Below the pieces are notes generated by a model. The model was not told where the DNA came from and did not search any database. It was given only the letters and a program-made list of their open reading frames with translations. A stretch of DNA of 64,000 nt, from the NCBI GenBank assembly GCA_963924555.1, contig OZ004582.1:5580001-5644000 (forward strand), read 5' to 3'. The position numbers and the translations under genes were made by a program. The DNA is from Crambe crambe (Eukaryota; Porifera; Demospongiae; Poecilosclerida; Crambeidae). Below are positions 6,525 to 64,000 of this stretch, one piece after another. How positions within the stretch are numbered: position 1 is the first letter of the stretch; each line of letters begins with the position of its first letter.

Positions 6525-6591
6525 ATGAGAAAACTCAAAGTTTTGGCTTTTCTCTGGTTTTTGATTGGAAGTATCAAGTCACAGGCAGAAG
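6525..6591 (+). CDS. Unit A exon 1: signal peptide
   Basis: Encodes MRKLKVLAFLWFLIGSIKSQ then AE: a basic N-terminus, a hydrophobic core and a small-residue cleavage region, so a classical signal peptide. It ends in phase 1 at donor GTATTT. An in-frame ATG exists upstream at 6390. I chose 6525 because the MRKL start is shared by all three copies and directly precedes the hydrophobic core. Confidence 0.78.
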
Positions 6592-9500
6592 GTATTTGTC
6601 ATTGTATGAAAAATGTTTATAGTGTTAATGATATAATATGAAATATCAGATTCTAGCTATGTATGTATGTATATAGCATAAATCATTGCTACATGGATAG
6701 CTAGATCAATGGCAATTAAAGGCTAATAGGCTAGGGCTAAACAGTGCATGCATGTCTACGTGATTTGTTGGAGGGTGGTTAGCCTGCATTGCCTATATTG
6801 GTAGCCCGGCAACAAGTCTACTTATCAACTACTATGTGCATGCATACATGTTTTTCAGAATCTTATATTCATGGAAATAGCTATCCATTTTGGAAATAAT
6901 ATGCATTTTAGATTTTAGTTGTTTGATTCTTACTTTGACATGGCCCTTCTGGGCCACCATATTATACTCCATGCGCCGATCTACCTCCATATTCAAACCT
7001 CTATATTTTAATGGTCCTAACGTGTCCACTATAGAGAGGTTCCACTGTAGCTACATAAAAAGGGGGGAGGAGGGCAAGAGATTCAGGCTGTCCTGATTTT
7101 TTATGGTAAAATTTAAAATTTGAAATTAAAACATGAGGCTGATAGTGAGTTGGTTATGAAATTGAGTCAACTAGAACAACAGATTTTAGTTGTTATATAT
7201 AGCAAGGGGGTGGGTGGGGGACTCTAAAATAACCTCGAATCCATGCTGTAAAAATGGGCCTGGGTATGAGGCTAGCTTGAATGTAGTGATGAAATGTAAG
7301 ACAAACTAAATATGTAAGCAAACTAGCTAGTTAGCTATTTAACTAACTGACGAAAAATCTTAATTCGTTTTGATGGCACTAAAATAGGATAGTAGCTATA
7401 TATACAGTTTTACAAGTCACACATCATGTTTATTATCAGCATCAGAGCACTAATCAAGTGTATCAAGTATATGTACATGCAGCTTGTTATAAACTGTATA
7501 ATTATGTAGATATGAGCTCCATCAGCATTTGTCCTTCCAGATCAGATGCATGCAATCAGGGTTTCATCTAAGGAGGGGGGCGCAGGGGAAGCTTCCCCTC
7601 CAAACAGCTCAACTTCTCTCCCAAACTGACCCAGCTTCCCCCCAAGATATTGCCAAAAGAAAGAGTTTTAGGATAAAAAATACTTCTAAGTAGTATATTT
7701 TTAGGATCCAACCATTAAAAAAAAATACTTCTAAGTATTATTTTATAATTTAAGCATTTTTGGCTTCACGCTCTGCGCAGGAGGAGGCACATCCCTCTTC
7801 CACACCCTCCCCCCAACGTGACCTCATGGCCACACATTCCATGAGCTTCCCCTCCAAGGTGAAATTCCTAGATGAAACCCTGACAATATTATGATGAAAC
7901 CTCCAATGAACTACATAGCTACAATACAGAACTTTAACTTGGATAACATCCAGTTGCCAATAATTGAATGTGCATATAAATTAACATAATTATTAATTAA
8001 TTGATTATTATAAATTTATAAACATCCAGTTGCCTATAATTGAATGTGCTTATAAAAACTGCATATGAAATATCGATGCTTAAGTTGAAATATCTCAATC
8101 AATATGTTTCAGCTGTACTCATATGAAACTGAAAAGCCTACATGGCTCTATTGAAGAGAGGTCAGATTTGATTACTTTAGCAAGCAAAGTTACAATACAA
8201 ATGACCGTTGCATTATAATTATGCCTTGGGAAACCTCAGGCTAGCTATGACAATTAGTGGTATGATAATTAGTGGTACAATCAATGCAAGTGAAGGTGTG
8301 CAATTGAAATGGTGCTCCATGGATAGCCTGGTTTAAGCTAAGGAGCTCTTTGTGTGTATCTCTTGCTCTTTTTCCAAGTGGAACCATATAGCTACCAAGT
8401 AGCTATTATAATACAACTATTTTTCTACATGGTAGCTATGTACAGTAATTTACAATTAACTATTGTTCTCTTTATGCAGTGACTGTTTTTTGGAGAGGAA
8501 GTAACATAACAGGCATTCCAACACTGATATATCATGATGAGGTTGAAACTGTTATCTATTCACCTCCACCAACACTCAGTAATCCTACTGGTCCTGGTGG
8601 TCTACTCTGCAGCTCTACAGTTGGCCCTATTGCTTGGCATCCAGGAAATGGTGCAATGACACAGTTTGATACTAATATTGGTTCAAGGGTCCTCTACCAG
8701 ATAATACCTAATGGGAACCTCATGGCCCAAATTGTCCGTGATGGGAGAACTCTGGATCTTTCAAATTCTGATTTTCATAATGGATTGTTTACTTGTCGAC
8801 GGAATGGTGATATTTCAACAGCAGTTCCTGTGGGTTTTTATCAAAGAGGTGGTGAGTTAATTTGTGTCTACTGTAAGATGACATGAAATACAAAATGAAA
8901 TTGTCAATGGAGCTTGCTTCACTCACTCCACACCAGGGAAATTTCTAACATTGGAGTTTCTTTGCATGATAATCTTGGGTAAAATGAGCACATGCACTCA
9001 TCCCATAATGCCATTTCCCTAGTGTCTGAATGGATTATGAAAGAAGCTCGCAAACCTAATGCCAAAGGTTGTGAGTGGTGCAATGTAACCTGTACAGGTA
9101 TATTGAATTGCATGCAGATACACTCCATCCTTATGGTGTATTTTCATGCACATCCATTACACAAATTGTAATTAATTCTGAGACCTGAGTCAGCAACTGA
9201 CAGCTAGTTAGCTAGAGACTGTTCTGGTACGCTAAATTCAACTCACCCCTCACTCTCAGCCTGACTGGAGCTATTTTTCAACTGTAGCATGTACAAACAC
9301 GCTTCAATGCCATTATAGCTATAGCCTACCATAGCACCCACAAAAGGCTATTTCGACCAGCAGTTTTTGTCAGTCTAGTTTGCACACTCTTCAAATTTCC
9401 TGTGCAGCAGCATGCTAGCAGACATGCAGAATTATCAAGATAGTTGGTGTCGAGTATAATAGCTATCTAGACTGGAGTCATGTTCAAGCCTAGTTCTGCA

Positions 9501-12318
9501 ATAACAAGTAATTCTCTAGTGAGTCCATACAGTACTCCAGTCCAGTAGTCCAGTGGTCACAATATTACTATCATAAGTTTCCGTGTGATACAATGAAATG
9601 TAAAAAGTATTACACTAACCAAAATTTGCATACAGCTATTATCTGAATAAGTGAACAAAATTATAGAGGGATTTATTCATATCTCACCTAGGATTTCAGA
9701 TAGCAATGAACGCTTCTGTAATTTGTAGAGAAAAGGGCTAAAAGAAGTAGCTAGTTGTAATCAACCAAAAATCAGCTACTGAATTGAATTGGTGAGAAAT
9801 AAATTTAGCTATATCTTGCCATTATAGAGCTTCGTATCTCGGGTAAGAATTGTTATTTTTCTCCTTCCATTTCCATAGTGGATGGGTTGTCAGAGAACTT
9901 TTGCTATTTGGTGATTTAGGCTATTTTTTGATCTAGTGGAGCAACTAAATTCACTTAACAACAATGCACTCATTGAGAATCTCTAATCATAAAAATATTG
10001 ATAAAGATAATATCTCGCATAACTACGTATGCTTATTACGTAGCTACATGTACATCATGAACTATAATTATGTACTCATTCCATAGAGACCACAGGCCAC
10101 ATATAAGTTCTTACTGCTGTGACCAATAGGTCGAAATAGTCCAAGCATGCAGTTAGCTACCTCTTCTAATTATTTAGCTAATCACTAAAATTAATGTCTT
10201 CACATACAGTACAAGTAGGGGAAAAAACATTTCCGTGAAATAAAAAAAAATAGGAATGATCATTGCTCAAAAAAGCTAAGGAAACAAGAGTAGGGATGAT
10301 GGAAATGGGATCAATCTTTGTTCTGTAAATCCTTATTTCAGTCCAAGTAACCATCTTCCTTAATGTTTTGGTTTAGTTTTAAGCTATCAGGACTCTCTAA
10401 GTAGGGATGACAGGTCAAAGGTCATAGGATTGTATAAACTAAAAACTCTTCTTTCTTATTCTATAGGTTCTCAGAAGGCTACAGTGAATCATTACATCTA
10501 CAAAGAAGAGAGAAGAATATTCAAAGATCTAAAATTCATTTGCTAACATAAGAAAAAACGATATCTGAAATTGACTTTTGTTCTATTATAATAATAATAA
10601 ATAAGATTGACGTACTGACTTACTGGCTATAGTCATCAGAATTCTGTTCGGGCCATCTGTTAGAGCGGCATCTAGAGGCTGATCTTTTGCTATTAGTTTT
10701 CACTACAGTTCCATTTTAAGGCATTGTACACTGTTTTTTGTCATCCCTACATCAACTTTCTTTTTTTTTTAAATGTTTTTTTTCCTTTAGCTACTTGTTA
10801 TTCGCTATTATGAACAAACTGAACAAAAGTCAATTTTAGAAATCATATGTTAGTGAATGAATTTTAGATTTTTGAACATTCTTCTCTCTACTGTGTAGGT
10901 GTAATGATTCTCTGTAGCCTTCTGAGAACCTGTAGAGTAAGGGTAGAAGAGAAAGAAGAGTTTTTAGTTTATACAGTCCTATGACCTTTGACCTGCCATC
11001 CCTAGACTTAGAGAGTGCTAGCGCACTCTCTGATGTACATAGGGATAGTAAATTGATCCCATTTCCATCCTTCATCCCTACCCTTGTTTCCTTTTTTTAA
11101 GCAATCTGATAATCATCTATAACTGAATAGCACAGGCCACATATTAAGTGCTTTCAAAAATGTATAATTCATGCAAAACAGTCCAAGCACTTTCTCCAGC
11201 TGCAGTTTAGCTCTTCAAATTCATAATAGAAATGTGGGTCTCATCCCCACATGCACACAGAGCATAGGATCACCTGTTTTACTGCTACGTATTTAGCTAC
11301 TTGTATTCGGTATGGTTTATTTCTCCAGTACGTGGTGTTATTAGAATCACTAGAGTAAGTATCACATCTAATTCATTCATGGCTGCCCCCCCATCCTTCA
11401 CTCTGGCTGGTGATACTGAAAATGGTCCTCCTGAAGCTTACACTTGGACAAGAAATGGTGTACCCATCATTAATAATAACTCATTCAGCATTTCCATTGG
11501 AGTAAATGGTGTAACTAACCCGAGTGCATATGACAATAGTCGCTATCAGAGCGCACTGACTGTGACTGGGACACTACCTGGAGTCTACCAGTACTCTGTC
11601 TCCAATAGAGCCACACTCAACACTCTCACCTCCAGTATTAATATAGAAGGTATGTAATTGTGATTCTTCTAGAATGTATGTTCATAATAATTATAGGTGC
11701 AGGGGTCACAGCTCCTAGTAACCTTTCAGCTCAACAAGCTGGAGTGGAAATGGTATTAGTCTCATGGACTTTACCATCTCTTCGACCTGTTGATGGGTAT
11801 CGAATAGCCACAGGATCGCCCCCAGATTTCTCTGCTGGTATTGATGTTGATGTTGGTCGTGATGTCTCTTCACACCAAATTAGACTAACACCAGGTATGC
11901 ATTCAGTTAATATAATGGCTCGTTCCCGGCACTATCCTGGTATGGTGGTGGGACCAGTGACTGTCACTGTGCTAGGTAAGGGAGAGATTTATGACTTATA
12001 ATATATTTTTATCGAGAGTCTACTAACATCATTCAGCATTTGAAAGGCCAATTATTATGCCACCATCAGTAACAGCCAATTCAGTCACGCTCTCCTGGGC
12101 CCAGCCTGAAGGTACTCTGCCATCTGAGAACTATACTATATCCCTACAACGTGGAACTAACCAGCCATTTTGTTCTGATGAAACAGACAGCAGGCAACTG
12201 ACCACCAATGATCAGTCGGTTGTTTTCTCTGACCTATGTGGAAGCAGTTCCTACACTGCCACTGTCACTGCCACAGCATTTGGTATTTCTATGATGATGT
12301 CACAAGAGTTCACGACAC
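6525..12318 (+). CDS. Unit A: secreted Ig/FN3 protein gene (3' end not found)
   Basis: Five exons: 6525-6591 (signal peptide), 8480-8851 and 11329-11649 (Ig-like), 11697-11975 and 12037-12318 (FN3). All junctions are phase 1 and the joined frame is open for about 440 residues. The last exon ends in a strong GTAAGT donor at 12319, so more exons must follow, yet none is recognised before the next signal-peptide exon at 17167. The 12319 donor could join phase-compatible to 19997, the first Calx-beta exon. The product should enter the secretory route and resembles a cell-adhesion ectodomain. Introns 11650-11696 (47 bp) and 11976-12036 (61 bp) are tiny, while the other two are long and carry transposon copies. 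Confidence 0.72.
7557..7882. mobile_element. Short inverted-repeat transposon, CAGGGTTTCATCTA family, copy 1
   Basis: A 326-bp non-coding element in intron 1 of unit A. It starts CAGGGTTTCATCTA and ends with the inverted equivalent TAGATGAAACCCTG. It is flanked by GCAAT/ACAAT, a near-match to the 5-bp duplications seen at the other copies (19333, 30330, 52195). Confidence 0.8.
8480..8851 (+). CDS. Unit A exon 2: Ig-like domain
   Basis: A 124-codon phase-1 exon after a TTTATGCAG acceptor. A Cys in GGLLCSSTVGPIAWHP and a Cys in HNGLFTCRRNG would form the Ig disulfide, with W in the C-strand position. The last-strand pattern is LFTCRRNG rather than the usual YxC. Donor GTGAGT at 8852 was preferred over GTGGTG three bases earlier. 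The domain is a divergent V/I-set-like Ig; I give no ligand. Confidence 0.7.
10211..11100. mobile_element. Inverted-repeat transposon block in unit A intron 2
   Basis: The left end has ACAAGTA.GGGAAAAAACATTTC, related to the hairpin element at 43264. The stretch 10290-10550 (including 'gtcaaaggtcatagga', 'ttctcagaaggctacag') recurs inverted at about 10840-11085. A hairpin GAGAGTGC-TAGC-GCACTCTC lies near 11012-11033. An inverted end-like sequence near 10765-10802 suggests two overlapping or nested copies. No transposase reading frame is visible. Confidence 0.65.
11329..11649 (+). CDS. Unit A exon 3: Ig-like domain lacking the cysteine pair
   Basis: A 107-codon phase-1 exon. The Ig pattern is seen in PPSFTLAGD...AYTWTRNG (B and C strands with Trp), YQSALTV and GVYQYSVSNRATLNT (F strand), but the B- and F-strand cysteines are absent and the exon encodes no Cys at all. 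The fold would have to be stable without the disulfide. The donor GTATGT opens a 47-bp intron. Confidence 0.65.
11697..11975 (+). CDS. Unit A exon 4: fibronectin type III domain
   Basis: A 93-codon phase-1 exon. The FN3 pattern is clear: APSNLSAQQAG, then VLVSWTLPSLRPVDGYRI (B-C strands with Trp and Tyr), SSHQIRLTPGMHSVNIMARS (F region) and a G-strand VTVTVLG. FN3 domains usually act as spacers or ligand-binding units in adhesion proteins. Confidence 0.82.
12037..12318 (+). CDS. Unit A exon 5: fibronectin type III domain
   Basis: A 94-codon phase-1 exon. PPSVTANSVTLSWAQPEG and ENYTISL mark the B-C strands, VVFSDLCGSSSYTATVTATA the E-F region, and QEFTTR the G strand. It ends at donor GTAAGT (12319), so it is not terminal. 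This is the last coding exon recognised in unit A. Confidence 0.82.
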
Positions 12319-12433
12319 GTAAGTTTGATCAAGCCAATTGACTGGAAAGTTAAGCATGCAACAGGATCTATCCACACACTTGGGACATATGTACTCCACT
12401 TATTATTCTCTGGCCTGAAGGCTTGTACAAGTA

Positions 12434-12981
12434 CTAGCTTCGTACCCAGGCTCTAGAATTATGTGGAGTCGAGAAATAGAGCCGGCCTGGTACCCACTGT
12501 TTGCGCATGCGCCAAAAATTTCATGCGCCTATTACACTTTATGATGGTGTGTGATGTCATAGCATGTAACTGCGTGTATGAGCATGCGCTATAAGATACC
12601 AAGAAAGCTGAAATTCTCTGTAGAAAAGAAGACAAGACTGGCAAAAATTGGCAAGAATTTTCTTATCCATAAGCCACTCTCCCTTAAAGAGATGATCACA
12701 GCCTCAGCTCTGCACTATTCCAATGAATGGAGAGAATTTTTGCTGCTGCTCCTTGTTCAGTACTAAGTGGGGTTGTCCCAGCTGAGATAGAGTGTAAAAC
12801 AAACACACCAAGAACTGTAGTTATCTACTGATTCAGCAGTATTGCGTCATGTATCACAGAAGATTGCAGAGAGATTATAAATTCCCCGAATCATGGGGAA
12901 TTTTTGGCGCATGCGCAAACAGTGGGTACCAGGCTCTTTTGTCTGCCTCTGCAAAATTTTAGAGCCTGAGGACGAGGCTAG
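12434..12981. mobile_element. hAT-like non-autonomous inverted-repeat transposon
   Basis: A 548-bp element flanked on both sides by the perfect 8-bp duplication TACAAGTA (12426-12433, 12982-12989). The ends are CTAGCTTCGTACCCAGGCTC and its near inverse. A longer internal inverted repeat holds GGTACCCACTGTTTGCGCAT on the left and its inverse near 12930. An 8-bp target duplication fits the hAT superfamily. Reading frames inside are short and look non-coding. Confidence 0.85.
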
Positions 12982-13616
12982 TACAAGTACAGGCCCTACT
13001 TATTAAAGTGAAGGGGAAAAAATTTAAAAAGGCCATTTTGGGTTAGTCTGTACTTTGAACTATAGCAGTTTCTGTGAACAAACATCAAAATTATGCTGCC
13101 TTCAATAATAATTCCTACATCACTGCCTCCCACCAAGCTGCTTTAACAGTGTAAAAGTGTCCTGCTTGGTTTAGTGCATGTCTAGTAGGTTGGAGGGTGG
13201 TGGTCTCAAATTCACTGTCTTTTTTTCGAGTGATTCTGAAGAAAAGTTACTTGTTTCTATGTAGTTAGTTTGCAAAGTGAATTTTTCCATTCTTGCAATT
13301 TCTCTTACCATGAAGAGCAAAATAGCTTGAAAATGGCAAGATTGGAAACGGTAAGATTGAAATTGGCAAGATTGGAAAGGTAGTTAGCTAAGATTGAATA
13401 AAACAAGATGGGAAATGGTACGTAAGATTGGAAATGGCAAGATAAGAAATAGCAAGATGGAAAAGTTTAATTTGCAAACTAGCTATTATTTCTATCTATG
13501 CGGAGGAGTAAGCAGTGATCCAATAACATGAACTTAGGCACACAAGCTTTTTCAAAATGCTCCAACCTAGCTATGTACATAACTATAGATCACATCTTTC
13601 TAGCTAGCCTATATTA

Positions 13617-15973: not shown

Positions 15974-16971
15974 ACTGGTAAAACAGTCAGAGTTACTTTC
16001 TGGGACTATTCAGGCCTTTCTGAGACAGCTGGCAACTGGGGAGTTTTATATTCAGCCCTTAAATTTCTAGCCTTCCATTTTCTTGCATGAACATTTCCAG
16101 CAGGCAGCTCAATGGGCTTGAGCCCCCCTTATGGATATCTTAGTCACACAATTTATCACTTATGCATGCATTAGTTTCCTTAATCAATATTATAACCATT
16201 TTTATTTCATACGCATTGAAAATATCTTAGCTGAGTAACACCAATTAATTATCCTCCTGAGCCATCCCTTTCCTGAAATCCTGGCTACAGGCCTGTTATT
16301 TACAATCCTAGTTCTTTATACATGCACAATACATGAGGTGGATCACCTGACCTGTATGATTACATCATAACTGTAAAGATTAATGATACCCCCCCCCCCA
16401 ATACTTGAGAGTTACATACACTAAATTATAATGCTCTAACCATGATGATGAAATATTTTACGCTTGGGGTGCTTGGGTATCTTCTACCTGATGGACTCGT
16501 ACTTTCAGCTGGAGGTTGCATATTATGGAAGTTGCCATCCACCTTTCCTCACTGCTTCAACAGGGCAGTGCACTGCTTTCAACAGAGATATATTCTGAGT
16601 CACATACATACTTGCTGCTTCAAATGATCATTGTACCCTTAAATGGCACCAGATCAAACCTGCTGGAAAGGTTTCTTTTGCTTCCTCAACCACCATATCT
16701 CTGACTACAAGTTTTAATGGCTGTGCTTGTTAGGGATCCCATATACTTCACTCAAAATACTGAAGCATTATAAGTACCAGAATGGTAATCCAAAATAAAG
16801 ATTATGGCTTCCAAACTGCATGATTACAGTAACCACGCATAGCTATCTGGTGTAGGCACATAATGCATTCTTTCTTTCAGGATATGTATCTACGTATGCA
16901 AGGATGCATGGGATTATATAAGCTACCAGCTCTGTTTATCACTATATATTGTTGTAATCTCAGTATATATT

Positions 16972-54339: not shown

Positions 54340-55460
54340 CTTGTTTGTTAGTTTGTTTGTTTCTTATTGCTTGTTTGTTTGTTTCTTCATTTATTCATTA
54401 GTTCTATACCTACCATTATCTCATACCATTATTATTAGCTTCATCTATGGATTTCATTCCCGTCAGCATGATAATTGAGATATCGAATAACAGTGGTGTA
54501 TGTGTACCTATCACCACTCTCAATGATCAAGAACTAGAGCAGAGGGAGATGTTTGTCGTGTCACTGGTGGCTGCTCTTGGACCAGTTCTAGTCAGCACCA
54601 ACAACATAGCAGTTGTGGCCATTAAGGATACTGATAGTGAGCACCATTTTGCTACTGTAGAACCCCTCATTGTGGACTCAATTTGGAAATTCTCGTGGTC
54701 TCATTCGTTTACAAAAATTATAACAAATTAACAAAAAAAAACCAACTGAAGTACAATAGAATATGACAATTATTTATGATCAGATGGAATGAGGCTGCAT
54801 TATACAGATGAACACTTAGACACGAACACTATAATATTTTTTACGCTGTATTAATTTCATGATTAGTGAACATCAACACCTTTTTTGCAGTGGTGGATGT
54901 CTTCTTCAATCAAAGCTCTTATTCAGTTGATGAGAGAGATGGTGTCCTGATGGTGTGTGTTCGTATCACTCCAGTAGTACTCCAACGACAGATTCTGGTG
55001 GACCTGACTCTGAGTAATGAGGATGGAACAGCCACACGTAAGACAAACTGGGAGCATAAGGCAATGCCTTAGTGAAACACAACAGGCAACACTACAAGAT
55101 TAAACAAAATTTAGTGATAGCTGATTAATGGCACCAACAAAATAATAATATTGATAAAACCATACAGATATAAAGATTGTTACAAGTTTGTCGAGGTGCA
55201 TAATCATCAAATTTTTTTTTACAGCTGGTGAGGATTATGTCAATGATACCTTTACCTTGACATTCTCATCATCTGCAATGGTACTCTGTGAAAGCATCAC
55301 AATCATATCGGATGGCATAGATGAAACCTTTGAGAACTTCAGTGCTGTACTGTCTACCAATGATACAGCAATTGAATTCACAATGTCCAATCCTGTTCCA
55401 ATCACTATTACAGGTAATTCATGCAAATAATACTTTCTTCTATTATAATCATTGAGGTTT

Positions 55461-55496
<36 letters not shown>

Positions 55497-58400
55497 CAGT
55501 GTGTGGTGGTTTCATTACTTTTGCAACATTCCATTGTGGAATTTTAGCTATTTCTTCATACATCAGCTACTGGACTGAAATTTAATAAAGAGAGCTAGTA
55601 CAGATAATCTCATCCAAACATGTTTGAGAAATATAATTGTTACCTCTCTCATTATTTTAATTGTTGTTGTTGTTGTTGCTGTTGTTATTGTTATTGTTAT
55701 TGTTGTTGCTGCTGTTGTTGTTTTTTGTTGTTGTTGCCGCTGTTGCTGCTATTGTTGTTGTTGTCATCATATTTTGTTAGGGTAAATTTGTTATTGTAAG
55801 TGATTCTTGATATTATTTACAATGTGCTCTACATATTATTATATGTGTTATGCATGCAGGCCCAGCTCATATCATAATCCAGCCAAGCAGTGTCTTTGAA
55901 ATCTCTGGCTGTGGAGCCTTCAGTGCCACATGTATAGCTTCTGCTGCATCCCTTCAGAGTTTTAACTTTATCCACAATGGACAAACTCTCTCCAATGACA
56001 GTCGGGCAACAATAACCATCGTTGAAATACAGGATCAGTTTTTTGTGGCAATTTTGCAGCTCTGTATGGTGACAGCAGAAGATACTGGGGAGTATAGCTG
56101 TGTTATTGATGATGGTCGCGATCAAGACTTGGCTAATTTTTCTGTTCAAGTGATCAATGAAGAAGGTGAGGTAGCTATTTGCATGTGAACAAAACAATCA
56201 CTAGGAACATTTCTATCCAGATATTGTGTAGAATCGTAATTCAATTCGGGGGTGGAATAGTATGTGTGTGAGTGTATATTCTGAGTTTTGGAATATTTCA
56301 TGTATCTTGAGAAAAGGTGTAAAGTGGATTCACATTTATTCCCATGTCAGTATATCAACTATATGCAGTAAATATACAGTTTGTGCCTTTATGACTCTTC
56401 TATTTGCTTGATCTAAGACATCAACAGAGAGCATGCATGGGTTTTATAGTGCTGTTTAAATTTGGACATGCAGTAGCTAGTTGAGCAAGCATTCAAAGTG
56501 AAAAATGAATCTTATTTTTATTCAGTGACTGTTGGTTTTGTTGGAGACACCTCACTATCATTGGTGGAAGGTGAAAATGTCACCTTGTTGGTTCAACTTC
56601 TCAGTGGAAGTCCTGCTTCTGGTTTTGTCGTACAAGTATCACCAGTGAGCGGCACAGCAGCATCAGGTAAATAACTATCATTAGAAAATGGTATGCTTTG
56701 ATCTTTAGTCTTTAATCAAGTGCTCAGTCCACCTGTTCTAGTAGTGTGGCTATGTAGGTCCCTTACCTAGTAAGACATGTAAGAACACCTACCCACAGAC
56801 TATTCACCAGTAAGACACCTCACCACAGGCAGATTAAGACACCATTTTCTTATAGAAAACAACATCTTCTAAACAAGTAAAACACTCAACGTGGTTCCTC
56901 AAGGAATTAAAGACCAAGGGTGATGTAAATGATCACCAAGTCAAACTATATACTTATACATAGCTAGCTATTATTTCATGTGGAATTAATTTTACCAAAT
57001 TTGCACCATCCATGACCACTGTTCTTGCTTCTTCCATGTAATTAGTAACTGGGTAGCTGGTTTATACCAACACAGAAAGTTTCCACTATGACCTGCACAA
57101 AAATGGCTGCAAAATGACTTTTGACATAATCATGTTTTAATTTACGGATTTCAATTTAATGTTCCTATGTATCTTCCATCCACTGCAGATGATTTCCAGA
57201 CACAAGATGATCAATTCTTCAGTTTCATGTGTGGAAATTTCATGTATCCTTTCAATGTCTCTATATTGGATGATAGTACTGTTGAGGGGAATCAGAGCTT
57301 CTCCTTGCAGCTGAGCGCTTCCTTTAATGCTGAGCAAGTCAATCTGACCGTGGATCCTGCAATATTGAATGTCATAATAATAGATAATGATAGTAAGTTT
57401 GTGCATTTTAATTGTGTGATCGAATGCTGTCCACCAGACACTCTTCAGCATTTACTGGAGATTTTTGTGCATCCATGTAACTATTTGGATATCCTAGTGG
57501 ATGGTAGACTTTATTGTCCACACTGCAAAAAATTTAGCCCACAAAAAAATTCATGCTATCAATTTAAGGGCTTATTGAGCCACTGTAGGCTTGATACATC
57601 TACACATATTATGTAGCTATTAATTTTGCTGATCTTTGAAATTCAGAATTTTTTTAAAGAAAGTGAATTATGGCTAACATGACCATATTTACTGTGTAGT
57701 TGAGTGCCAAGTGATTAGTATGTATAGTTATTATTGTTATTATTTTTGCAGTGACTAATATTTTCTTCCAATCTGCCACATATGAAGTCAATGAAGGAGG
57801 GTCAGGTGCTGGGCAGTATTGTGTGGAAACTGGAGAGCTTCCTCAAAGGGATATTGTAATTGCATTCCGTTTTACTGCTGGAACAGCTCTAGGTGAGACA
57901 TATGCTTGCTTTATTGTTTGATAACCTGAACAATATTTCATTATTACGTACGTGTGTATATAATTCTGCAGCTGGTGAGGATTACAATGATATTTCTGGG
58001 ACTCTGACATTTTCTCCCACTGGCTCGACTGTGGCCTGTAGAAATTTCTCAGACATTATCATTCAGGACAATCTGGTTGAAGGAGCAGAGGTTTTTACTA
58101 TCCAGTTGGAAACAAATGATACAAGTGTCAATCTCACTCAATCAACCACACAAGTAACCATTGGTGATGACAGTGACAGTAAGTTGAACTATTTTACTAG
58201 ATACAGACTTGGAAATTGTTCAGTCTTAATAATGATGGACAATCTGCTATCATTATTATTTATAGCAGCACCTACATAATAATTATTATCTTTTTCCTTC
58301 AGTGTTTTTCGTGGAGTCTGAATCGGGTGCAGAGGTAGAAGTAGCTGAAGGAGAAAGGATCTTTGTGTGCTTTAACCGCTCCAGTAATCTTGCTCGAATA

Positions 58401-61400
58401 TCCTTCATTTCTTTGACTTCGATTTCCAATACTACATCAGGTAAGATGGATATGAGCACAATTAAGTTTTAGATCTCTTAATATCATGATTAAAGAAAGT
58501 ATAAACTGGGAAATCTTCTTCAGATAATAATGTGTGTTTAGAGTTTTCATGAGCTAGTATTTATATTAATTTCCATAATTGAACATGACCAAATGTACTA
58601 TAGAACAGTTTCCATTAATAATCAGTTCATACTGGATCTGCATTGACTATGTTCATATGTAGGATCAGATTTTGAGCTGTCTTCTGAACAAGTCGTTTTT
58701 TCAAGTATACAAGGTCGAGACTGTGTAGTAGTGGTTGGTGTGCTAGATAATACTGTGGAAGACACAGAATTCTTTAGCTTACTAGTCAGCAGTTCTGACC
58801 CAGCTGCCAATATAGTGAATGATGTCATCATTGTGAGGATCACTGACAGGAGTACAGGTATCAGAATTATTATATTAGCCAGAACACATCATTTCATCAT
58901 TGTAGCTAAATGATAATCAACCTCATGCAGTATTATGTATATTAGACTGTAGCATTTCATTACTGATATATAGAAGTACGGGTATGTCAGTATGATGTAT
59001 GTAGTATTATTAGACTGCATTTGAAACTTTTAATTTGATTTTTCCACAGTCTTAGCTTAACAGTTTCATCTCAGGATTTTCATTTTGGGGGGCCACCTCC
59101 ACTCCCCCCCCCCCCCCAGATGAAATCCTGATTGTAGTAATCCGTTAATAATCTCTAAACATTTCTTCTCCTCATCATTGATAGGAGTATATGAGGGGGG
59201 GGGGGTTTCAAATCCTGTAATAATCTCTAACCATTCTCCTCCTTTACCATGTCGGGCTTAGCTGCATTTGCATTCATCTTTGACGGTGATGCCGTGCGGA
59301 GTGTATCAGAAGGTTCTGAACTGACTCTCTGCCTGCAAGTGCTGCCTCCCTCCATTATTGAACCTGCCACAGCTGCTGCATTTCCTTCCACAAGTCCTCC
59401 AGATCCTATGAACCCTGATCCATCTGTGTCACCACTGGACAGAAATGTGATCCTTCAGATAACCACACTTAGTGATACTGCTATTGGTGAGTTTTGAATA
59501 CCAAATTCAAGATTTTCTCTACATAATAAAAAATTGAAAAATGAAAAAAAAATAATTTAATTGCAGCGAGCGAGCTGACTCTCGGGTCATGACTCATTGA
59601 AATTGTAAATAATCTAGGTCTACACTCCAAAATGCTCCAGGCGTACATACGGTAAGTACGTGTCCCGAATTAGTAGCGCTGTGCGTGCATAATGCGCATG
59701 CTCTAATTGGAATCTAGCTAGATTGTTTTCTACAGCTTTTTGTCATCGTGCTTGGCTTAGGCCACTATTTATAGAATCCTAGTTTTCTGTCCAAGAAGAC
59801 ATCCACAAGTGCTGCGGGCAGGAGGTTATTCTATTCTTGCTTCGTTATTTGTCTCAAAGGTCCTGTCTTCATCATTCACCATGGGCTTTCCCAAAAAGAG
59901 CTGTGTGTGAAGCCAAATGTGTGCGCTCTACTGCGCACATGAGCAGTGGCAGTAATAATATTTTTTTGATGCGGTAACATTTTCAATACGCGGGAACAAT
60001 CATTCTATTAATAGTGGCCTTATCTAAGTGCTTGTGGTAAGTATTTACAGCTTTCTATGTCTGGTTGGAACCATTCTTTAGTGCTATAACTCTTTAGAAG
60101 ATTAGTTTATATGTATTAGATAAGCATAGGTACTCTACAACTAGCAATGTGCAGCTTTAGACAGTGAGCAAGTGAGCAAGAAAAGTAGCTGATAGGCTCT
60201 ATAGTGCTTGATATCGCTGTCAGATAGAGTCATGTACTTGCTTGCTTGCTGTCAAATTGTAAATGTTGCACATTGCCCTAGTAATACAACACTAAACAAC
60301 ATGCAATAGCTATTAGCCTTCCTATACCTTATCTCATGCTAAAATTAACCAGCTATCCACCAAGTACTACAATAAAAAATTCATTCATAGGCCACTAATA
60401 TTGATACTTCTGTCTTATTATGCAGATGGGGTTGACTATGTCAGTGTGAATCGCTCACTGACATTTAATTCGTCTGTCGGTGTCAACTGTGTGAACATCG
60501 TAGCAATACCTGATGATAACCTGGAAGCAGTAGAATCCTTTAGCGTATCAGTCACTTCTGCTGACTCAGCTGTCTTCCTGATAACAAATGAGACTTCAAT
60601 ATCTATCCAAGATACAGGCAGTGAGTTCATTTGCTATAGCAAATAGATAAAACATATCAATCAGTCACTGGACTGGGCTGTAGCTAGTTAAACTATTGAT
60701 TTGTTCTTGAGTGATTTATGATTTTGATATAATAATATACTCTGAAATTCGAAAAAAAAAAGTGATTTTCTGTGAATACATAAAGGCAATATGCATAGCC
60801 CCAGCAGTGAAGTGAGTATATTCTGTTCTTACACTTATAGCTTAACAAGTTACTTAATCTGAATAATAGCGTTGTCCCTGTAAGTTCTGCAAACACAATT
60901 TCATACATGCAGGTTTCCTATAATCATACATACTTGTTGGCATTTATATAGAACACCAGTAAATCCTTCTTTATCTTAAGCACATAGAAAATATGCCTCC
61001 TTGCATATGCTCATTGTGTATTGAAAAGAAAAAAGTGCAATTGTTGTGTATTAACTTCTCAGCCCTGCCAGCGTTTTTCAGCCAGACAAGCTACACTGCT
61101 AGTGAGAGTGAAGGGTTTGTCGAAGTATGTGTCGTGCTCAGTGGAGGCAGGATTGATCGTACTTTGACAGTTAACCTCTTCATAGCTGATGGACCTGCTA
61201 CAGGTAAAAGTCAGGAAATACATGAAATTATAATATTATTCATATACCTGCTAATCTTATAAATTATTTACTTATCATCAGCTCCAGCTGACTACGATGC
61301 TTCAAACTTCCCTAATATGTTCATCTTTGTACCTGACAATGTGACAACTCGTATGCTGTGTAGAAATATCTCTATCATCATGGATGATGTGGTGGAGAAT

Positions 61401-64000
61401 TTAGAGACTTTCTCTGTCCACATAAACTCGTCAGATCCTTCAGTCAATTTCACACAACTCAATGCAATAGTAGAAATCATTGATAACACTAGTAAGTGCA
61501 CTTTATAAAATCTTCCTAACTGCTTTGGGTTATTTGTACACAGTAGAAGATTGTTGTGAGTAAAAAAAAAGAAGTTAATTTCATGATCTTAAAAACAGGC
61601 CATCAGATTCAGACCCAATATAGCTATATACATGATTTTGATTGGCGACAAAATTAGGCTGGACACCCTGCAACACTAAGCTATAATGTTAATACAATAC
61701 ATAATGATAGTATTGTTTGCTACGTAAGCAATGTACTGTGTGACACTGTATCGTATTACAGCTAATTATTGCATTGAAACTATAATTGGATTTATAGCCC
61801 ATTGCCATGGTAACGGACGGATTTACATGGATTTATAAATGTGATACAGTGCATGTAATTGTAGCCTGGGGTGGTGTTTACAGATTGCATTGAAACTATA
61901 ATTGGATTTATAGCCCATTGCCATGGTAACGGACGGATTTACATGGATTTATAAATGCGATACAGTGCATGTAATTGTAGCCTGGGGTGGTGTTTACAGA
62001 TTGCATTGAAACTATAATTGGATTTGAAACCAGTTGTGACCCAAGTATAGTGGTCTGAGACCCATAATTATAATTATATATACAACACTAGTTAAGTATC
62101 TTAACACTATTTTATCAGCACTGCAGGTATTTTTGAATAGAACTAGTGTGACGTACTTTGAGGCAGATGGATCTGTCAGTGGTTGTGTGGTTCTTGAAGG
62201 TGGAAGACTAGATCGCAATGTAATTGTCAACCTCGTAACAGTTGATGGAACTGCAATAGGTACGTTGCTACTTAGAAAATACACAAAACTGAGCAAGCTC
62301 CTTAGCCAGCTTAACCAGAAACCCTTTTCATAACGATTTATAGGTCCACCTCTGGAAGATAAACCATGAGCCTATTAGGCATTTTTTTCATTATTAATTT
62401 TGTACACTGCCAGTAGTAGCAGCTGTTTAATGATAATTGTTGTTATGTTTAAAAGATAATTGAGCATCAAGCATGCTATTATTAGTGACTGTAAGGGTGT
62501 TCTTTGTATTCCCTGAGGGTAAAGTGCCCAGGGTACAATGAGAAGGTGTCATTAAAGGTATCAGTGTATTCCCCCAATCTGAAAGCATAATATTATGTGT
62601 ATAAGAATATTAATCCTTGTATATTATATCGTAACTAGCACCATTGGACTACACTCCCCTCAACGTCCCTGTTTTCTTTTCTCCAAATAATGCTACACAA
62701 CAGTTTTCCTGTGGGATGATTCCTGTTGCGGTGGACAATGTGATAGAAAACACTGAAGTGTTCTTTATCACCTTGACTTCATCCGATCCTGCAGTTGTCC
62801 TCACACCACCAAATAATACCACCATAAATATTCTGGATAGCAGCAGTAAGCCAAGATAATATGCACTTTCCTTAGCATGAAGGTTATATTATGAGATCTA
62901 GCCTTTTCTTTTTTGATTACATGAACAGAGCTAACTGCATCATGCATAATGCTACTTGTAACTGCATGCTACTGCGTGTAATGCTAAATGAATGTTCTAT
63001 CAGTGGTTTAACTGCATTTGCCATGTCCCCAACAGCCAGTTATTTCTACCTCCTTATAAAGTCCACGTTTTATTAGCATGCTATACTGTAATTCTGTCAT
63101 AGCTGTGGAGGCCTCCTTCAATGACATCAGCTTCACTGTTAGTGAGAGTGAAGGCAACATAACTGGATGCATCATACTTTCTGGTGCTGTGCTAGATCGA
63201 GATGTGCAAGTTACGGCTACATCTGTCAATGGAACTGCAACAGGTATGTATGGTATGGAACAATCAATGAAAAGTGTTGGATAATTATGACTCAAGCTTT
63301 TGTATGTTTCTTATTGTTTATGATCAAGTTATTTATTGTTGCTTTCTTGCATGCATATTACTTACTTGCTTGCTTATTTGCTTGAATATTTACTTGCTTT
63401 TGCTTTTTCTTGTTCGTTTATTTGTTTGTTACTTGCTTACTTGTTTGTTTATTTGTTTGTTTACTTGTTTATTTGTTTGTTTGCTTGCTTTACTTTCAGC
63501 TCCAGCTGATTATATTGCCATCACCGATGGCATCATCACATTTTCTCCCAATAATATCATAAATCACATGCTCTGTGGAGATGTCCCTATCATTATGGAT
63601 GATGTGGTGGAAGACACTGAAACATTCTTTACCATTCTCACATCATCTGATCCAGCTGTCAACATCACACAAGACAATGGCACTATTAATATCCTGGATA
63701 ACACCAGTAAGCACATAGCAACAACAACAAATCTATTTCCCTAGTACAAGCTTGAGGTTCGACATGATATACCTAACTATATTGGCTTTAAGTATAAAAA
63801 AAAACATGCATAGTAGGTGACCACTGAGTCAGCTTCTACTGTATTAATTATTATTTTCATATTCAGCTCTGCTAGCATCTTTCAGTCAGACCAGCTACAC
63901 TGCTAGTGAGAGTGAAGGGTTTGTTGAGGTATGTGTGGTACTCAGTGGAGGAAGGATTGATCGTGTTCTGAATGTTAACATCTTCACAGCTGATGGAACT
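33842..64000 (+). CDS. Unit C: giant Ig/Calx-beta/NIDO/SMB ectodomain gene (3' partial)
   Basis: 49 exons give an open frame of over 3,100 residues; exon coordinates are in the domain entries below. Domain order: signal peptide, Ig, Calx, Ig, Calx, Calx, linker, NIDO, Calx, Ig, Calx, Calx, linker, NIDO, SMB, Calx, NIDO, Calx, Calx, Ig, then eight more Calx pairs and a half. Each internal exon has the length demanded by its phases, which supports one continuous transcript. No stop, transmembrane segment or new signal peptide was seen between 33899 and 64000, so the C-terminus is outside the window. The set resembles animal matrix or adhesion proteins: NIDO occurs in nidogen and tectorins, Calx-beta arrays in FRAS/FREM, VLGR1 and sponge aggregation factors. 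No known family has exactly this order as far as I recognise. Splitting into two genes after 42828 is possible but unsupported. Confidence 0.7.
34189..34506 (+). CDS. Ig domain C-Ig1
   Basis: A 106-codon phase-1 exon. Cys in CETFVASCTAIF and in NGMYECVVSN give the B/F disulfide; FTRNGVRL is the C-strand region. The F-strand motif YEC and ending SVINEEG are shared with C-Ig2 and C-Ig4. Confidence 0.86.
34794..35426. mobile_element. TTAA-flanked inverted-repeat element
   Basis: 633 bp between perfect TTAA flanks (34790-34793, 35427-35430) with 14-bp ends GGGTGGTGGCACAT and ATGTGCCACCACCC. TTAA target duplication fits piggyBac- or Kolobok-type transposons. No transposase frame, so non-autonomous. 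It sits in the intron after C-Ig1. Confidence 0.82.
35430..35900. other. GC-richer stretch of unknown origin in a unit C intron
   Basis: Less AT-rich than its surroundings, with an internal near-repeat ('ttcagatgcccacatcac' / 'ttcaggtgcccacatcac'). Open frames exist on both strands but none shows a recognisable domain or splice context. Possibly an old transposon fragment. Confidence 0.4.
36455..36950 (+). CDS. Calx-beta domain C1 (TIG type)
   Basis: Exons 36455-36598 and 36747-36950. N-half VTIGVNGPTSVSVPEGG, C-half IPDRDSILQGERMFNLSL ending FTVLDNG. This TIG-type N-half also opens C2, C4, C5 and C10, and often sits next to an Ig exon. Confidence 0.8.
37440..37754 (+). CDS. Ig domain C-Ig2
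   Basis: A 105-codon phase-1 exon after a TTATTATTCAG acceptor. Disulfide cysteines lie in ISFTCEATG and SGEYECFVSN; FRRDGMEL is the C-strand. NDSSTFTINL and LNETG close the domain. Confidence 0.87.
37955..38434 (+). CDS. Calx-beta domain C2 (TIG type)
   Basis: Exons 37955-38089 and 38207-38434. N-half TIGWNGTTSISLMEGET, C-half FNCQNRAHSVNVVILND and FELNETVFLQLV. It has an insertion PGSPSPSPSPF before the last strand IVIIDEDR. Counterpart of C5 in the second cassette. Confidence 0.82.
38663..40121 (+). CDS. Calx-beta domain C3 with a furin-like site
   Basis: Exons 38663-38812 and 39837-40121. N-half GLEVNPSTVDEGDNVTVC, C-half INDDLSNPEYTIAVEL, then an insertion containing GGPRRKRRAVSG before the ending LLITVDDDAG. 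RRKRR (40022-40036) is a strong furin-type cleavage motif; the counterpart domain C6 lacks it. The intron contains the 83-bp minisatellite at 39205-39530. Confidence 0.8.
39205..39530 (+). repeat. 83-bp minisatellite, four copies
   Basis: Units starting near 39211, 39301, 39384 and 39467 share 'gggcagttgcatgtcaagtg', 'ggcaccacta' and 'cagtgcctcagagggcc'. The last three are spaced exactly 83 bp. The open frame across them is a repeat by-product. A single related unit occurs near 22225-22290. Confidence 0.9.
40547..40588 (+). CDS. 42-bp linker exon with GC donor
   Basis: Encodes DNFPPGPLRSPELG between Calx-beta C3 and the first NIDO domain. It ends at GCAAGT, a GC-AG intron. The counterpart exon 47967-48008 is also 42 bp and encodes SSLPPGPFRDPALG with an ordinary GTGAGC donor, which confirms the exon. 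Confidence 0.78.
   Translation: MIIFPLALYEVLN
40879..42828 (+). CDS. NIDO domain C-N1
   Basis: Exons 40879-41003, 41471-41749 and 42594-42828 (phases 1-0, 0-0, 0-1). LLSYGINMGDNIF and FRFFGRNSSKLF lead into VNSNGVVSFDEEF, IAPYWADVDITTFGQIFYN and the TWDRV strand, then NTFQVVLASDG and SRSNIGVNGTYLF. These are the hallmarks of the NIDO domain of nidogen/tectorin-type matrix proteins. Confidence 0.88.
41797..42009. mobile_element. Small inverted-repeat element in the NIDO C-N1 intron
   Basis: Ends AGGTAAAGTGGGGCTATTTC and the inverse GAAATAGCCCCGCTTTACCT are flanked by TA on both sides, giving about 213 bp. This fits a TA-target (mariner-like) non-autonomous element. It begins about 45 bp after the donor at 41750. 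Confidence 0.72.
43264..43556. mobile_element. Near-perfect hairpin transposon
   Basis: 293 bp folding almost entirely on itself: arms of about 130 bp starting AACAAGTAAGGGAAAAAGCA, with a spacer of about 30 bp. Because of the symmetry, both strands give the same open frame starting MKKDVGMTTAQKSKE, an artefact. End sequence is shared with the block at 10211 and fragments near 4050. Confidence 0.9.
44421..45050 (+). CDS. Calx-beta domain C4 (TIG type)
   Basis: Exons 44421-44564 and 44850-45050. N-half VTIGFTGEPAVSITEGQS, C-half FILSPTTLTFNFANM, then DAFFGGNRTFSLSLAL ending ITIIDSS. It opens the second Calx/Ig/Calx/Calx/linker/NIDO cassette, mirroring C1. Confidence 0.82.
45300..45610. repeat. 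Diverged tandem duplication, about 150-bp unit
   Basis: 'ccatgttgacgatctttacc' and its neighbours occur at about 45329 and 45486, with 'gtagcggcaag' and 'acaggcattatg' following in both copies. The region is less AT-rich than the surrounding intron. The minus-strand open frame across it reflects the duplication; no domain was recognised. Confidence 0.65.
46052..46366 (+). CDS. Ig domain C-Ig3
   Basis: A 105-codon phase-1 exon. Cysteines in TLLATCTASG and VGEYQCVVSN; FTHNGVAL is the C-strand. The sequence FTFTVATLLICSVTQ parallels C-Ig1 closely, so the two are recent relatives. Confidence 0.87.
46488..46983 (+). CDS. Calx-beta domain C5 (TIG type)
   Basis: Exons 46488-46625 and 46771-46983. 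N-half VVVGWDGTTTLSLMEGEN, C-half FNCQNRAHTVNITILND ending LIIIDEDR. The C-half is nearly identical to that of C2 and the first exon has no internal ATG start, so it is easily missed. Confidence 0.83.
47265..47735 (+). CDS. Calx-beta domain C6
   Basis: Exons 47265-47420 and 47484-47735, with a 63-bp intron. N-half IILGLQVMNGSSSVNEGD, C-half INDNEFNPTYQIAFRLP ending LLITVDDSQG. Counterpart of C3, but without the RRKRR-bearing insertion. Confidence 0.82.
47967..48008 (+). CDS. 42-bp linker exon before NIDO C-N2
   Basis: Encodes SSLPPGPFRDPALG, phase 1 at both ends, followed by a 53-bp intron. Together with 40547-40588 it shows that this proline-rich mini-exon is a conserved part of the NIDO cassette. 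Confidence 0.8.
48062..49621 (+). CDS. NIDO domain C-N2
   Basis: Exons 48062-48183, 48665-48934 and 49384-49621, with the same phases as C-N1. LLSFGIEFGDNFI, FPFFGQNYSDVG, DANGAIMLFEVD, TTVGRVFFNLV, ATWDRVPQRGG and SFQVVLATDGQSSYVGF mark it. The usual APFWADVD strand is replaced by YPYATAVDLTTVGRVFFN, so this copy has lost the conserved Trp-Ala-Asp. Confidence 0.84.
48209..48235 (+). repeat. 27-bp G homopolymer
   Basis: An uninterrupted G run in the intron after the first NIDO C-N2 exon. Comparable C or G runs lie at 5731-5747, 15942-15970, 19396-19422, 52441-52453 and about 59105-59117, often inside or beside transposon copies. Exact lengths may be unreliable. Confidence 0.9.
50007..50150 (+). 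CDS. Somatomedin-B-like cysteine-rich domain
   Basis: A 48-codon phase-1 exon with ten cysteines, including FSGCCDP, NCSCSQDCFSQGSCCAD and SANC. The C.C..DC....CC.D pattern fits somatomedin-B domains, which are disulfide knots in vitronectin and ENPP proteins. It occurs once, between NIDO C-N2 and Calx-beta C7. Confidence 0.82.
50443..51469 (+). CDS. Calx-beta domain C7
   Basis: Exons 50443-50598 and 51287-51469. N-half VTPDRDEVRIDAEDNVNAEV, C-half GADYVPVVESFQVT and DGEFEASETFIVAIS ending VTVII. It is divergent, with the final strand lacking the acidic DNDG ending. It precedes the third NIDO domain directly. Confidence 0.75.
51655..53467 (+). CDS. NIDO domain C-N3
   Basis: Exons 51655-51782, 52521-52796 and 53227-53467. 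LLPFGLQFGDELL, FQYFGTNESTVF, VNSNGLISFRMPF, IAPFWDDIDIRAFGEILFRF, TWNNV, NTFQAVISVSELESYVIFLY, then SNIGIAGTYSYRVD. It is the most canonical of the three. A transposon copy (52195-52490) sits in its first intron, 31 bp before the acceptor. Confidence 0.9.
52195..52490. mobile_element. CAGGGTTTCATCTA-family element, copy 4 (reverse orientation)
   Basis: A 296-bp element flanked by a perfect 5-bp duplication ATAAC. The internal sequence is inverted relative to copies 1-3 ('cctaggaattttaccttgg' side first). It lies in the intron directly before the second NIDO C-N3 exon. Confidence 0.85.
52903..53175. repeat. Repeat with GCGAGCAAG-type ends
   Basis: Begins 'acatttgacagcgagcaag' and ends with inverted-like 'catgacctgcttgcttgctc'. 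Related sequence occurs at 49090-49140, 59567-60290 and partly 22930-23190. Probably a family of old non-autonomous transposons; boundaries are approximate. Confidence 0.5.
54004..54636 (+). CDS. Calx-beta domain C8
   Basis: Exons 54004-54132 and 54439-54636. N-half VSLNVSSEVNEGDTLMAC, C-half LNDQELEQREMFVVSL ending VAIKDTDS. The intron holds a CTGT tetranucleotide repeat (about 54298-54345). The N-half is the shortest in the array (129 bp). Confidence 0.8.
54891..55413 (+). CDS. Calx-beta domain C9
   Basis: Exons 54891-55037 and 55225-55413. N-half VFFNQSSYSVDERDG...NEDGTATR, C-half GEDYVNDTFTLTF and SDGIDETFENFSAVL ending ITITG. Canonical split after the GTAT turn. Confidence 0.86.
55660..55770 (+). 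repeat. Imperfect (GTT/GCT)n triplet repeat
   Basis: TTG/GTT/GCT triplets over about 110 bp in the intron before the fourth Ig exon. An (AG)n run lies at about 55467-55493 in the same intron. Similar TTG runs occur at 22573-22640. Confidence 0.85.
55860..56165 (+). CDS. Ig domain C-Ig4
   Basis: A 102-codon phase-1 exon. Cysteines in AFSATCIASA and TGEYSCVIDD; FIHNGQTL is the C-strand and VINEEG the end. It is followed by a TIG-type Calx-beta domain, as is C-Ig1. Confidence 0.87.
56526..57392 (+). CDS. Calx-beta domain C10 (TIG type)
   Basis: Exons 56526-56666 and 57189-57392. N-half VTVGFVGDTSLSLVEGEN...GTAASG, C-half FQTQDDQFFSFMC and LDDSTVEGNQSFSLQL ending IIIDNDS. Confidence 0.85.
57752..58178 (+). 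CDS. Calx-beta domain C11
   Basis: Exons 57752-57892 and 57972-58178, with a 79-bp intron. N-half FFQSATYEVNEGGSGAG...TAGTALG, C-half GEDYNDISGTLTFSPTG and QDNLVEGAEVFTIQL ending IGDDSDS. Confidence 0.86.
58303..58857 (+). CDS. Calx-beta domain C12
   Basis: Exons 58303-58440 and 58663-58857. N-half VEVAEGERIFVCFNRSS, C-half GSDFELSSEQVVFSS and LDNTVEDTEFFSLLV ending RITDRST. Confidence 0.82.
59072..59130. repeat. Remnant of the CAGGGTTTCATCTA-type element
   Basis: Only 59 bp: CAGGATTTTCATTTT at one side and AGATGAAATCCTG at the other, with a poly-C run between. No flanking duplication is visible, so this is an internally deleted, diverged copy. Confidence 0.5.
59262..60620 (+). CDS. Calx-beta domain C13 with proline-rich insert
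   Basis: Exons 59262-59486 and 60426-60620. N-half VRSVSEGSELTLCLQV, then an unusual insert AFPSTSPPDPMNPDPSVSP before RNVILQITTLS. C-half GVDYVSVNRSLTF and PDDNLEAVESFSVSV ending IQDTGS. The N-half exon (225 bp) is far longer than the usual 141 bp. The 939-bp intron holds GCGAGCAAG-type repeats. Confidence 0.82.
61063..61491 (+). CDS. Calx-beta domain C14 (type R)
   Basis: Exons 61063-61203 and 61282-61491, with a 78-bp intron. N-half SQTSYTASESEGFVEVC...ADGPATG, C-half DYDASNFPNMFIFVPDN and MDDVVENLETFSVHI ending EIIDNTS. Close relative of B7. Confidence 0.87.
61771..62026 (+). repeat. 116-bp tandem repeat, 2.2 copies
   Basis: 'gcattgaaactataattgga' starts at 61771, 61887 and 62003, an exact 116-bp period; the third copy is partial. 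Units contain 'ggtaacggacggatttacat' and 'cctggggtggtgtttacag'. It lies in the intron before the 62119 exon. Confidence 0.93.
62119..62845 (+). CDS. Calx-beta domain C15 (type P)
   Basis: Exons 62119-62259 and 62639-62845. N-half NRTSVTYFEADGSVSGC...VDGTAIG, C-half DYTPLNVPVFFSPNN and VDNVIENTEVFFITL ending NILDSSS. Exon lengths and almost all residues equal those of B5 (24517/25076). Confidence 0.88.
63103..63706 (+). CDS. Calx-beta domain C16 (type Q)
   Basis: Exons 63103-63243 and 63500-63706. N-half ISFTVSESEGNITGC...VNGTATG, C-half DYIAITDGIITFSPNN and MDDVVEDTETFFTIL ending NILDNTS. Counterpart of B6, sharing a TTGC-rich intron and the CAA run after the donor. Confidence 0.88.
63867..64000 (+). 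CDS. Calx-beta domain C17, N-half (cut by window end)
   Basis: The exon starts after ATATTCAG and reads SQTSYTASESEGFVEVC to ...ADGT, matching the type-R N-half of B7 (141 bp) almost exactly. About seven more bases of exon are expected beyond 64000, then a donor and a C-half exon. Confidence 0.87.

Follow-up and report, generated by a model that had tools for sequence, protein, structure and literature searches.

Tandem signal-peptide exons and a predicted giant Calx-beta adhesion GPCR gene in the sponge Crambe crambe

Scaffold C3 in the 143.1 Mb assembly of the demosponge Crambe crambe (Poecilosclerida) carries three consecutive units, A, B, and C, each headed by a signal-peptide exon, which raises the question whether these units encode separate proteins or one receptor with alternative starts. 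The window, i.e., the whole stretch of 64,000 nt that was analysed, corresponds to C3:5580001-5644000; local comparisons span C3:5540001-5744000 (204 kb), and positions are counted from the window start also past 64000. C3, C9-C11, C13, and C14 denote scaffolds, and exons C1, C2, and C59-C63 belong to unit C. A sequence-only reading had suggested a single locus with alternative first exons and nested ectodomains. Our preferred reading, to which we assign a probability of roughly 0.6, is one giant adhesion GPCR gene with a re-headed 5′ region, three tandem promoter/signal modules, and nested isoforms. The predicted gene is of the Calx-beta type, resembling ADGRV1/VLGR1.

Gene models and the 7TM end of the locus

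An initial exon-chain model with 413 exons over the locus was dropped, and stricter and forced single-gene models were then edited by hand. Transposon-like exons and exons of the GAIN/7TM part were removed, split exons were repaired, and three exons of the NIDO region were added; one hand-added exon (40547-40588) requires a GC donor, and the bounds of B2-B23 were set by hand in part. Splice-site scores derive from a matrix whose training set was these modelled exons, with donor percentiles relative to 157 modelled internal donors. For genome-wide searches, only the best candidates were scored and listed. The features of the locus are compiled in Table 1. Upstream of it lie a Kelch-like frame (window 670-1599) and, further upstream, a protein-kinase-like frame (about -700 to 431), both labelled from the reading frame only.

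Table 1. Features of the locus in window positions.
Feature	Position	Strand	Remarks
Decayed copy of exon u2	4784..4971	+	Frame broken; DNA match to the C3 inverted paralog
Conserved block upstream of A1 (A 5′ module)	5490..5625	+	Copies at 15976-16103 and, weaker, 33148-33272
A1, putative promoter/5′UTR and signal-peptide exon	6276..6591	+	ATG 6525 (signal exon 6525-6591); donor 6592, phase 1
A2, Ig-V-like exon, C13 origin	8480..8851	+	Labelled by eye from pattern; without Pfam match
A3, Ig-like exon, C13 origin	11329..11649	+	Pfam Ig_3 below cut-off
A4, FN3-like exon, C13 origin	11697..11975	+	Labelled by eye; without Pfam match of its own
A5, FN3 exon, C13 origin	12037..12318	+	Pfam fn3, E 2.5e-10; donor 12319 GTAAGT, phase 1
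Inverted-repeat (MITE-like) insertion, intron 3′ of A5	12420..12995	+	
B1, duplicated putative promoter/5′UTR and signal-peptide exon	16881..17233	+	ATG 17167 (signal exon 17167-17233)
B2-B23, 22 phase 1-1 exons, all open	19997..31522	+	Donor 31523 GTAAGT
C1, third signal-peptide exon	33842..33899	+	ATG 33842; also an in-frame upstream ATG
C2 onward: exons for Ig, Calx-beta, and NIDO, followed by a Calx-beta array running out of the window	34189..64000	+	

The three signal-peptide exons of the sequence-only reading are confirmed, and the locus is larger than the window: unit C ends at ~123,050, about 59 kb past the window edge. After its Calx-beta exon chain come one Ig exon, located at about 111.3 kb, and then exons for a GPS motif and a 7TM region near 118,840-123,046, with a stop after 123,046. 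In case of the hand-joined C tail, Pfam assigns a 7tm_2 domain (E 2e-28, positions 2-250 of 250) and a GPS (E 1e-12), and makes no call for a GAIN domain. A six-frame genome search independently placed 7tm_2 at C3:5702060-5702377, and among solved structures (phmmer, PDB) the 7TM part matches adhesion GPCRs best, with ADGRG2 at the top (E 7e-26). By Pfam, NIDO (E 1.7e-28), one Calx-beta stretch, and two Ig stretches fall within the first 839 aa of unit C, and the final 766 aa of its ectodomain model hold five Calx-beta stretches and one Ig; more Calx-beta exon matches for this unit are located at C3:5643875-5688746. In the hand-edited model, the ectodomain before the GAIN part comprises 8,329 aa in 132 exons; together with the tail, a model-based estimate of roughly 9,200 aa is obtained. 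Judged by its GPS followed by 7tm_2, unit C is a giant Calx-beta/Ig/NIDO adhesion GPCR, and several signal-peptide exons are situated 5′ of this 7TM end on the same strand.

Two identical copies of a 1,420-base inverted-repeat element occur at 90473-91892 and 141365-142784, one of them within a modelled C intron, where it is a recent insertion. A 2.8 kb element, present twice in tandem with 92% identity (72150-77659), fills most of the longest modelled C intron. On other scaffolds, C9:4224783-4225019 holds a Calx-beta match within one uninterrupted open frame (10,128 aa), possibly a giant single-exon gene, and in C10:6556000-6575500 Calx-beta domains are densely arrayed, many of them matched over nearly their full length within single open frames.

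Origin of the signal-peptide exons and of unit A

A1, B1, and C1 are homologous, all end in phase 1, and encode similar signal-like peptides as judged by eye; the three exons had been recognised before, with the B and C positions placed 1 nt too early. Genome-wide, the A1 region with its flank has three matches, all at this locus. The similarity extends well into the surroundings: 5642-7315 of A and 16289-17974 of B share 76%, B and C match at 62% over ~370 nt around the signal exon and at 69% over a 120-nt upstream block, and the block upstream of A1 is 88% identical to its B copy and 70% to its C copy. At its sensitivity, a genome-wide search of this block recovered the A and B copies only. 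With an identity of 76%, haplotype duplication is an unlikely source of the A/B repeat. A1 and B1 differ at 3 of 67 positions, all three of them protein-changing, and the flanks are almost equally similar, so that conservation between A1 and B1 was rejected as a sign of purifying selection. The conserved tract around the signal exons may be promoter sequence.

We infer that A1, B1, and C1 are first exons. The AG one base before each ATG ranks at the 12th, 6th, and 5th percentile, respectively, and acceptor-like sites further upstream are found at 6276 and 16881 (52nd percentile) and at 33549 (4th percentile).

By homology, unit A is a chimera of a local signal exon and Ig/FN3 exons 2-5 from a family on C13. 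In a genome search with exon A2, the best 40 of 77 candidates are this locus, 38 places on C13, and one on C11, and a second search gave 79 candidates, again with 40 scored; A5 matches another 12 places, which all lie on C13 (88-94% for ten of them, 67% for two). For the seven of these 12 places that were returned as loci and compared, homology stops in every case at 12433-12434, inside the left arm of the inverted-repeat insertion, and on its far side only a 19-nt, non-significant C13 match (E 0.21) was found. The C13 genes continue after the A5-type exon with more FN3-like exons, and within the 204 kb four downstream domains from one C13 gene matched nothing convincingly (best E 0.037). Since A2-A5 are homologous but the downstream exons were not found in 204 kb, unit A is a partial chimera and not a full member of the C13 Ig/FN3 family, in which further FN3 exons follow the A2-A5 type.

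The C13 relatives form a large Ig/FN3 receptor-like family on both strands of C13:3134000-4510600 (loci L002-L008, L023-L024, and L026-L040), with variable segments between conserved frames and a mean dN/dS of ~1.2-1.3 within the family. A recognition or immune receptor array is possible; protein kinase domains in the array were absent among the matches listed from the best 121 of 1944 candidates. An AlphaFold prediction of exon A2 alone reached a mean pLDDT of 31.5, and its fold was not used.

Unit B and the connection of the three units

The B model, including B1, comprises 1,324 aa with seven Calx-beta stretches (Pfam). Unit B is under constraint as estimated from codon comparisons. Six B-C exon pairs (340 codons) give a dN/dS of 0.31 (bootstrap 95% 0.20-0.48; 2% of replicates at least 0.5), and four B-B exon pairs (233 codons) a weaker 0.51 (0.28-0.99). 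In a neutral simulation at the divergence of the B-C block, the probability of no stop is ~0.0005 for the whole B ORF and 0.19 for the block itself.

Protein searches with the head and tail exons of B revealed ordered homologs at two places on C14 (1335133-1346500 and 1463652-1486436); homologs of B2-B3 were found on the minus strand at C3:5814839-5815685 and at C11:6840305-6841118. The B23 homolog of either C14 locus (54-55% identical) is internal and followed by exons e1 onward in one predicted chain. Phase 1-1 applies to 23 of the 25 internal exons in the first locus and to 12 of the 15 in the second, and in the first locus the exons after the B23 homolog carry Calx-beta matches (Pfam, E 5e-17). 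No 7tm_2 was among the matches listed near the C14 loci. These two B-like Calx-beta loci are represented by C14:1327001-1347000 and 1455001-1465000 (L041-L043).

The inverted paralog on C3 has the order signal-like first exon, u1, u2, B2-type, B3-type, e1 onward, and C59-C63-like exons, the last being 82-96% identical to C59-C63 and part of the same predicted chain as the B2-B3-type exons. All 27 internal exons are of phase 1-1. Further on, the same strand carries Calx-beta matches (to 5779554) and 7tm_2 matches (5772047 and 5768659), and across C3:5768-5801 kb these domain matches link the chain to its putative 7TM exons. Terminal exons of the modelled paralog stretches are edge effects. On the minus strand, this probable Calx-beta adhesion GPCR extends over C3:5817200-5768600 (5′ part within L044-L046), with a 3′ end ~66 kb beyond the end of the gene described here and a different signal-like first exon.

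In the paralog, u2 directly precedes the B2-type exon. Its relic in the window is 70.2% identical at the DNA level over 188 nt (E 4.5e-26) and reaches E 2e-12 in tblastn, with exon B3 (0.004) as the next best place in the 204 kb; the translation of the relic contains stops and a frame change. Since the relic is situated upstream of A1, the exon A1, the C13 cassette, and B1 appear to sit in the former u2-B2 intron, and relic and paralog order together indicate that B2-B23 were internal exons near the receptor N-terminus. A B23-like relic near 3136-3180 was discarded as too weak (E 0.095, with 0.05, 0.05, and 0.005 in three control stretches). For e1-e11, no match was listed between B23 and C2, and the best ones in the 204 kb (E 2e-4 or worse) concern other Calx-beta exons. 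This stretch has thus been rebuilt, so that a B23-C2 junction would be new, and a 3′ truncation of B is possible. Unit B looks like the re-headed N-terminus of the receptor and C1 like an internal start.

Both donors at the ends of the upstream units hold up as real phase-1 sites, 12319 (CAC/GTAAGTT) at the 83rd and 31523 (ATG/GTAAGTA) at the 97th percentile of the 157 modelled internal donors. The proposed in-frame joins to 19997 and 34189 are correct but uninformative, because nearly all exons are of phase 1-1 anyway (4/4 internal exons of A, 22/22 of B, and 122/131 modelled exons of C). The A5-B2 intron would be 7,678 nt long, longer than all 157 modelled introns, and the B23-C2 intron 2,666 nt (98.7th percentile). 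That no stop-containing exon follows A or B, as had been stated, is not strictly true, given that acceptor-like AGs with short phase-1 tails do occur: 33 in the A gap and 15 in the B gap reach at least the 5th percentile, i.e., 7.1 and 6.6 per kb compared to 6.2-7.7 in four control scans. Under stricter conditions (score 8 or more, tail of at least 5 aa, and poly(A) signal within 600 nt), the A gap contains two candidates and the B gap one (0.4 per kb), four control scans gave 0.4-0.7 per kb, and the reverse strand of the gaps gave none. That A and B lack a clear last exon is therefore a fair statement, not proof.

According to the preferred reading of one re-headed receptor gene, a promoter and signal-peptide exon would exist in three tandem copies (A1, B1, and C1), B2-B23, ancestrally internal near the N-terminus, would now stand behind B1, and C1 would be an internal start site ahead of C2. 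Since a first exon needs no acceptor, a B1 transcript would by default join 31522 to 34189, skip C1, and continue to the 7TM end. Starts at C1 would give a receptor without the Calx-beta array of B, and starts at A1 would add an Ig/FN3 head captured from the C13 family, with A5 (12318) joined to B2 (19997). In the hand-edited model, the nested products would have ~9,200 (short), ~10,500 (middle), and ~10,900 aa (long) and a common GAIN/GPS/7TM end; the promoter activity, every junction between units, and thus all isoforms are predicted from genomic DNA. Read-through past a signal exon, the core of the sequence-only reading, gains support for B into C by comparison, as B-type exons are internal to a longer Calx-beta chain in two C14 loci and in the C3 inverted paralog, and B-C nesting is likely. 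The case for A into B is weaker, since A is chimeric, the A5-B2 intron would be the longest, and the median-strength acceptor 16881 would bring an in-frame stop after 13 codons; A-B nesting is possible. The fullest version of the proposal, in which three duplicated modules make nested receptors and the most upstream one captured a C13 Ig/FN3 head, is tentative.

Alternatively, A and B could encode separate secreted proteins, or decay from such, with hidden short last exons, and C could be an independent receptor gene. Phase-1 tails do exist behind reasonable acceptors at 15467 (16 aa), 13265 (38 aa), and 33510 (11 aa), each with AATAAA or ATTAAA within 600 nt, and in the 204 kb neither the continuation exons expected after B23 from C14 nor those after A5 from C13 were found. 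Such tail sites, however, occur at background density, the longest tail measures 62 aa, and B-type exons belong to a longer exon chain in all three paralogous loci compared, so that we consider this explanation unlikely. Still less probable appears an outcome in which A1 transcripts enter the B1 exon via acceptor 16881 (or 17166), run into an in-frame stop after at most 13 codons, and yield a short secreted Ig/FN3 protein or undergo nonsense-mediated decay, the signal exons thereby stopping the upstream units. AG sites ahead of B1 and C1 indeed speak against nesting in that they could bring in stop codons, at once or within 13 codons upon phase-1 entry from the upstream unit: entry at 16881 reads RYVSTYARMHGII-stop and at 17166 CA TGA, and acceptor 16881 is stronger than that of B2 (13th percentile). 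The equivalent in C (33549) and the AG of C1 rank at the 4th and 5th percentile, whereas C2 reaches the 40th, so that this outcome hardly applies to B into C, and the conserved tract including 16881 may instead be promoter sequence.

A further alternative concerns unit A by itself, which could be a dead chimera, i.e., a 5′ duplicate beside a captured, 3′-truncated C13 piece without a stable product. Besides the common end point of C13 homology in 7/7 loci and the C13 downstream exons missing from the 204 kb, the three nonsynonymous differences between A1 and B1 are consistent with it, and a neutral A ORF would still be stop-free with P 0.08 (simulation at half of A's own divergence). At codons of A3-A5 that are invariant in the seven C13 copies, A has 10 synonymous and 15 nonsynonymous changes, and this branch-specific test is non-significant (ratio 0.50, one-sided P 0.07); the same test of A2 against 15 copies gave 2 and 1, respectively. 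For A2, pairs with A average a dN/dS of 1.10 (0.79-1.54), and pairs within C13 1.23 (105 pairs, 0.62-3.06); for A3-A5, pairs with A average 0.67-0.81, and pairs within C13 average 1.28 (0.91-1.72). Against a dead unit stand the four cassette exons, all of which are open with usable splice sites, and the indels relative to the C13 locus L005, of which 3/3 exonic ones but 2/12 intronic ones are multiples of three. Constraint on A is suggested rather than proven, its changes may partly predate the capture, and a dead unit A is a possibility that we rate as clearly below even.

Relation to known receptor genes

ADGRV1/VLGR1 carries LamG/pentraxin and EPTP repeats besides Calx-beta repeats. The latter are present here in the B model and in the C ectodomain, and no LamG/EPTP match was listed for the scanned parts, which include about one fifth of the 8,329-aa C ectodomain model. 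A very long, Calx-beta-rich ectodomain followed by a GPS and a class B-type 7TM region is common to both; this likeness rests on domain content, with ADGRG2 and other ADGRs as the nearest solved 7TM structures. The gene described here differs from ADGRV1/VLGR1 in its Ig and NIDO domains on the N-terminal side, in carrying three signal exons, and in a head of Ig/FN3 type that stems from another family. PMC3251606 describes Calx-beta as the signature of VLGR1, and ADGRV orthologs are reported from choanoflagellates and filastereans in PMC12716839.

In mouse, RNA-seq data in PMC6667449 revealed adhesion GPCR genes with multiple intronic start sites and N-terminal domain variants, and the same survey includes cases of one gene split by promoters; alternative promoters of mammalian adhesion GPCR genes are reviewed in PMC13197933. 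In these mammalian genes the starts are shown by RNA, whereas here tandem signal exons are read from the sequence. Neurexin alpha/beta and dystrophin have downstream promoters with their own first exon, which is skipped by longer transcripts, and one C-terminus; unlike these, the first exons here are tandem duplicates and one unit contains captured exons. In case of the protocadherins, tandem units with their own starts lie upstream of shared 3′ exons, but the chosen first exon skips the other ectodomains, whereas the isoforms predicted here include the downstream ones and are therefore nested. For the sponge Amphimedon, 40 adhesion GPCRs were counted in PMC4302439, the main text of which does not contain the term ‘calx’. 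Among the papers listed for sponge Calx-beta adhesion GPCRs, sponge VLGR1, and Crambe crambe receptors, none reports this locus, and none of those listed for Crambe crambe receptors contains the species name.

Alternative starts of adhesion GPCRs are a known kind of arrangement; the duplication of a promoter/signal exon together with the capture of foreign exons is unusual. If the fullest version of the proposal is true, a head of the recognition type could signal through the same 7TM end, by an exon capture between two receptor classes that uniform phase 1-1 exons would have enabled. Should the junctions prove real, the locus would provide nested isoforms of a VLGR1-like adhesion GPCR in a sponge, with alternative starts that can be compared to those of mammals. 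It would also illustrate, in a datable case, the gain and swap of ectodomains in animal receptor genes through exons that are uniformly of phase 1-1, a tandemly duplicated promoter/signal exon, and exons captured from an unlinked, fast-evolving family.
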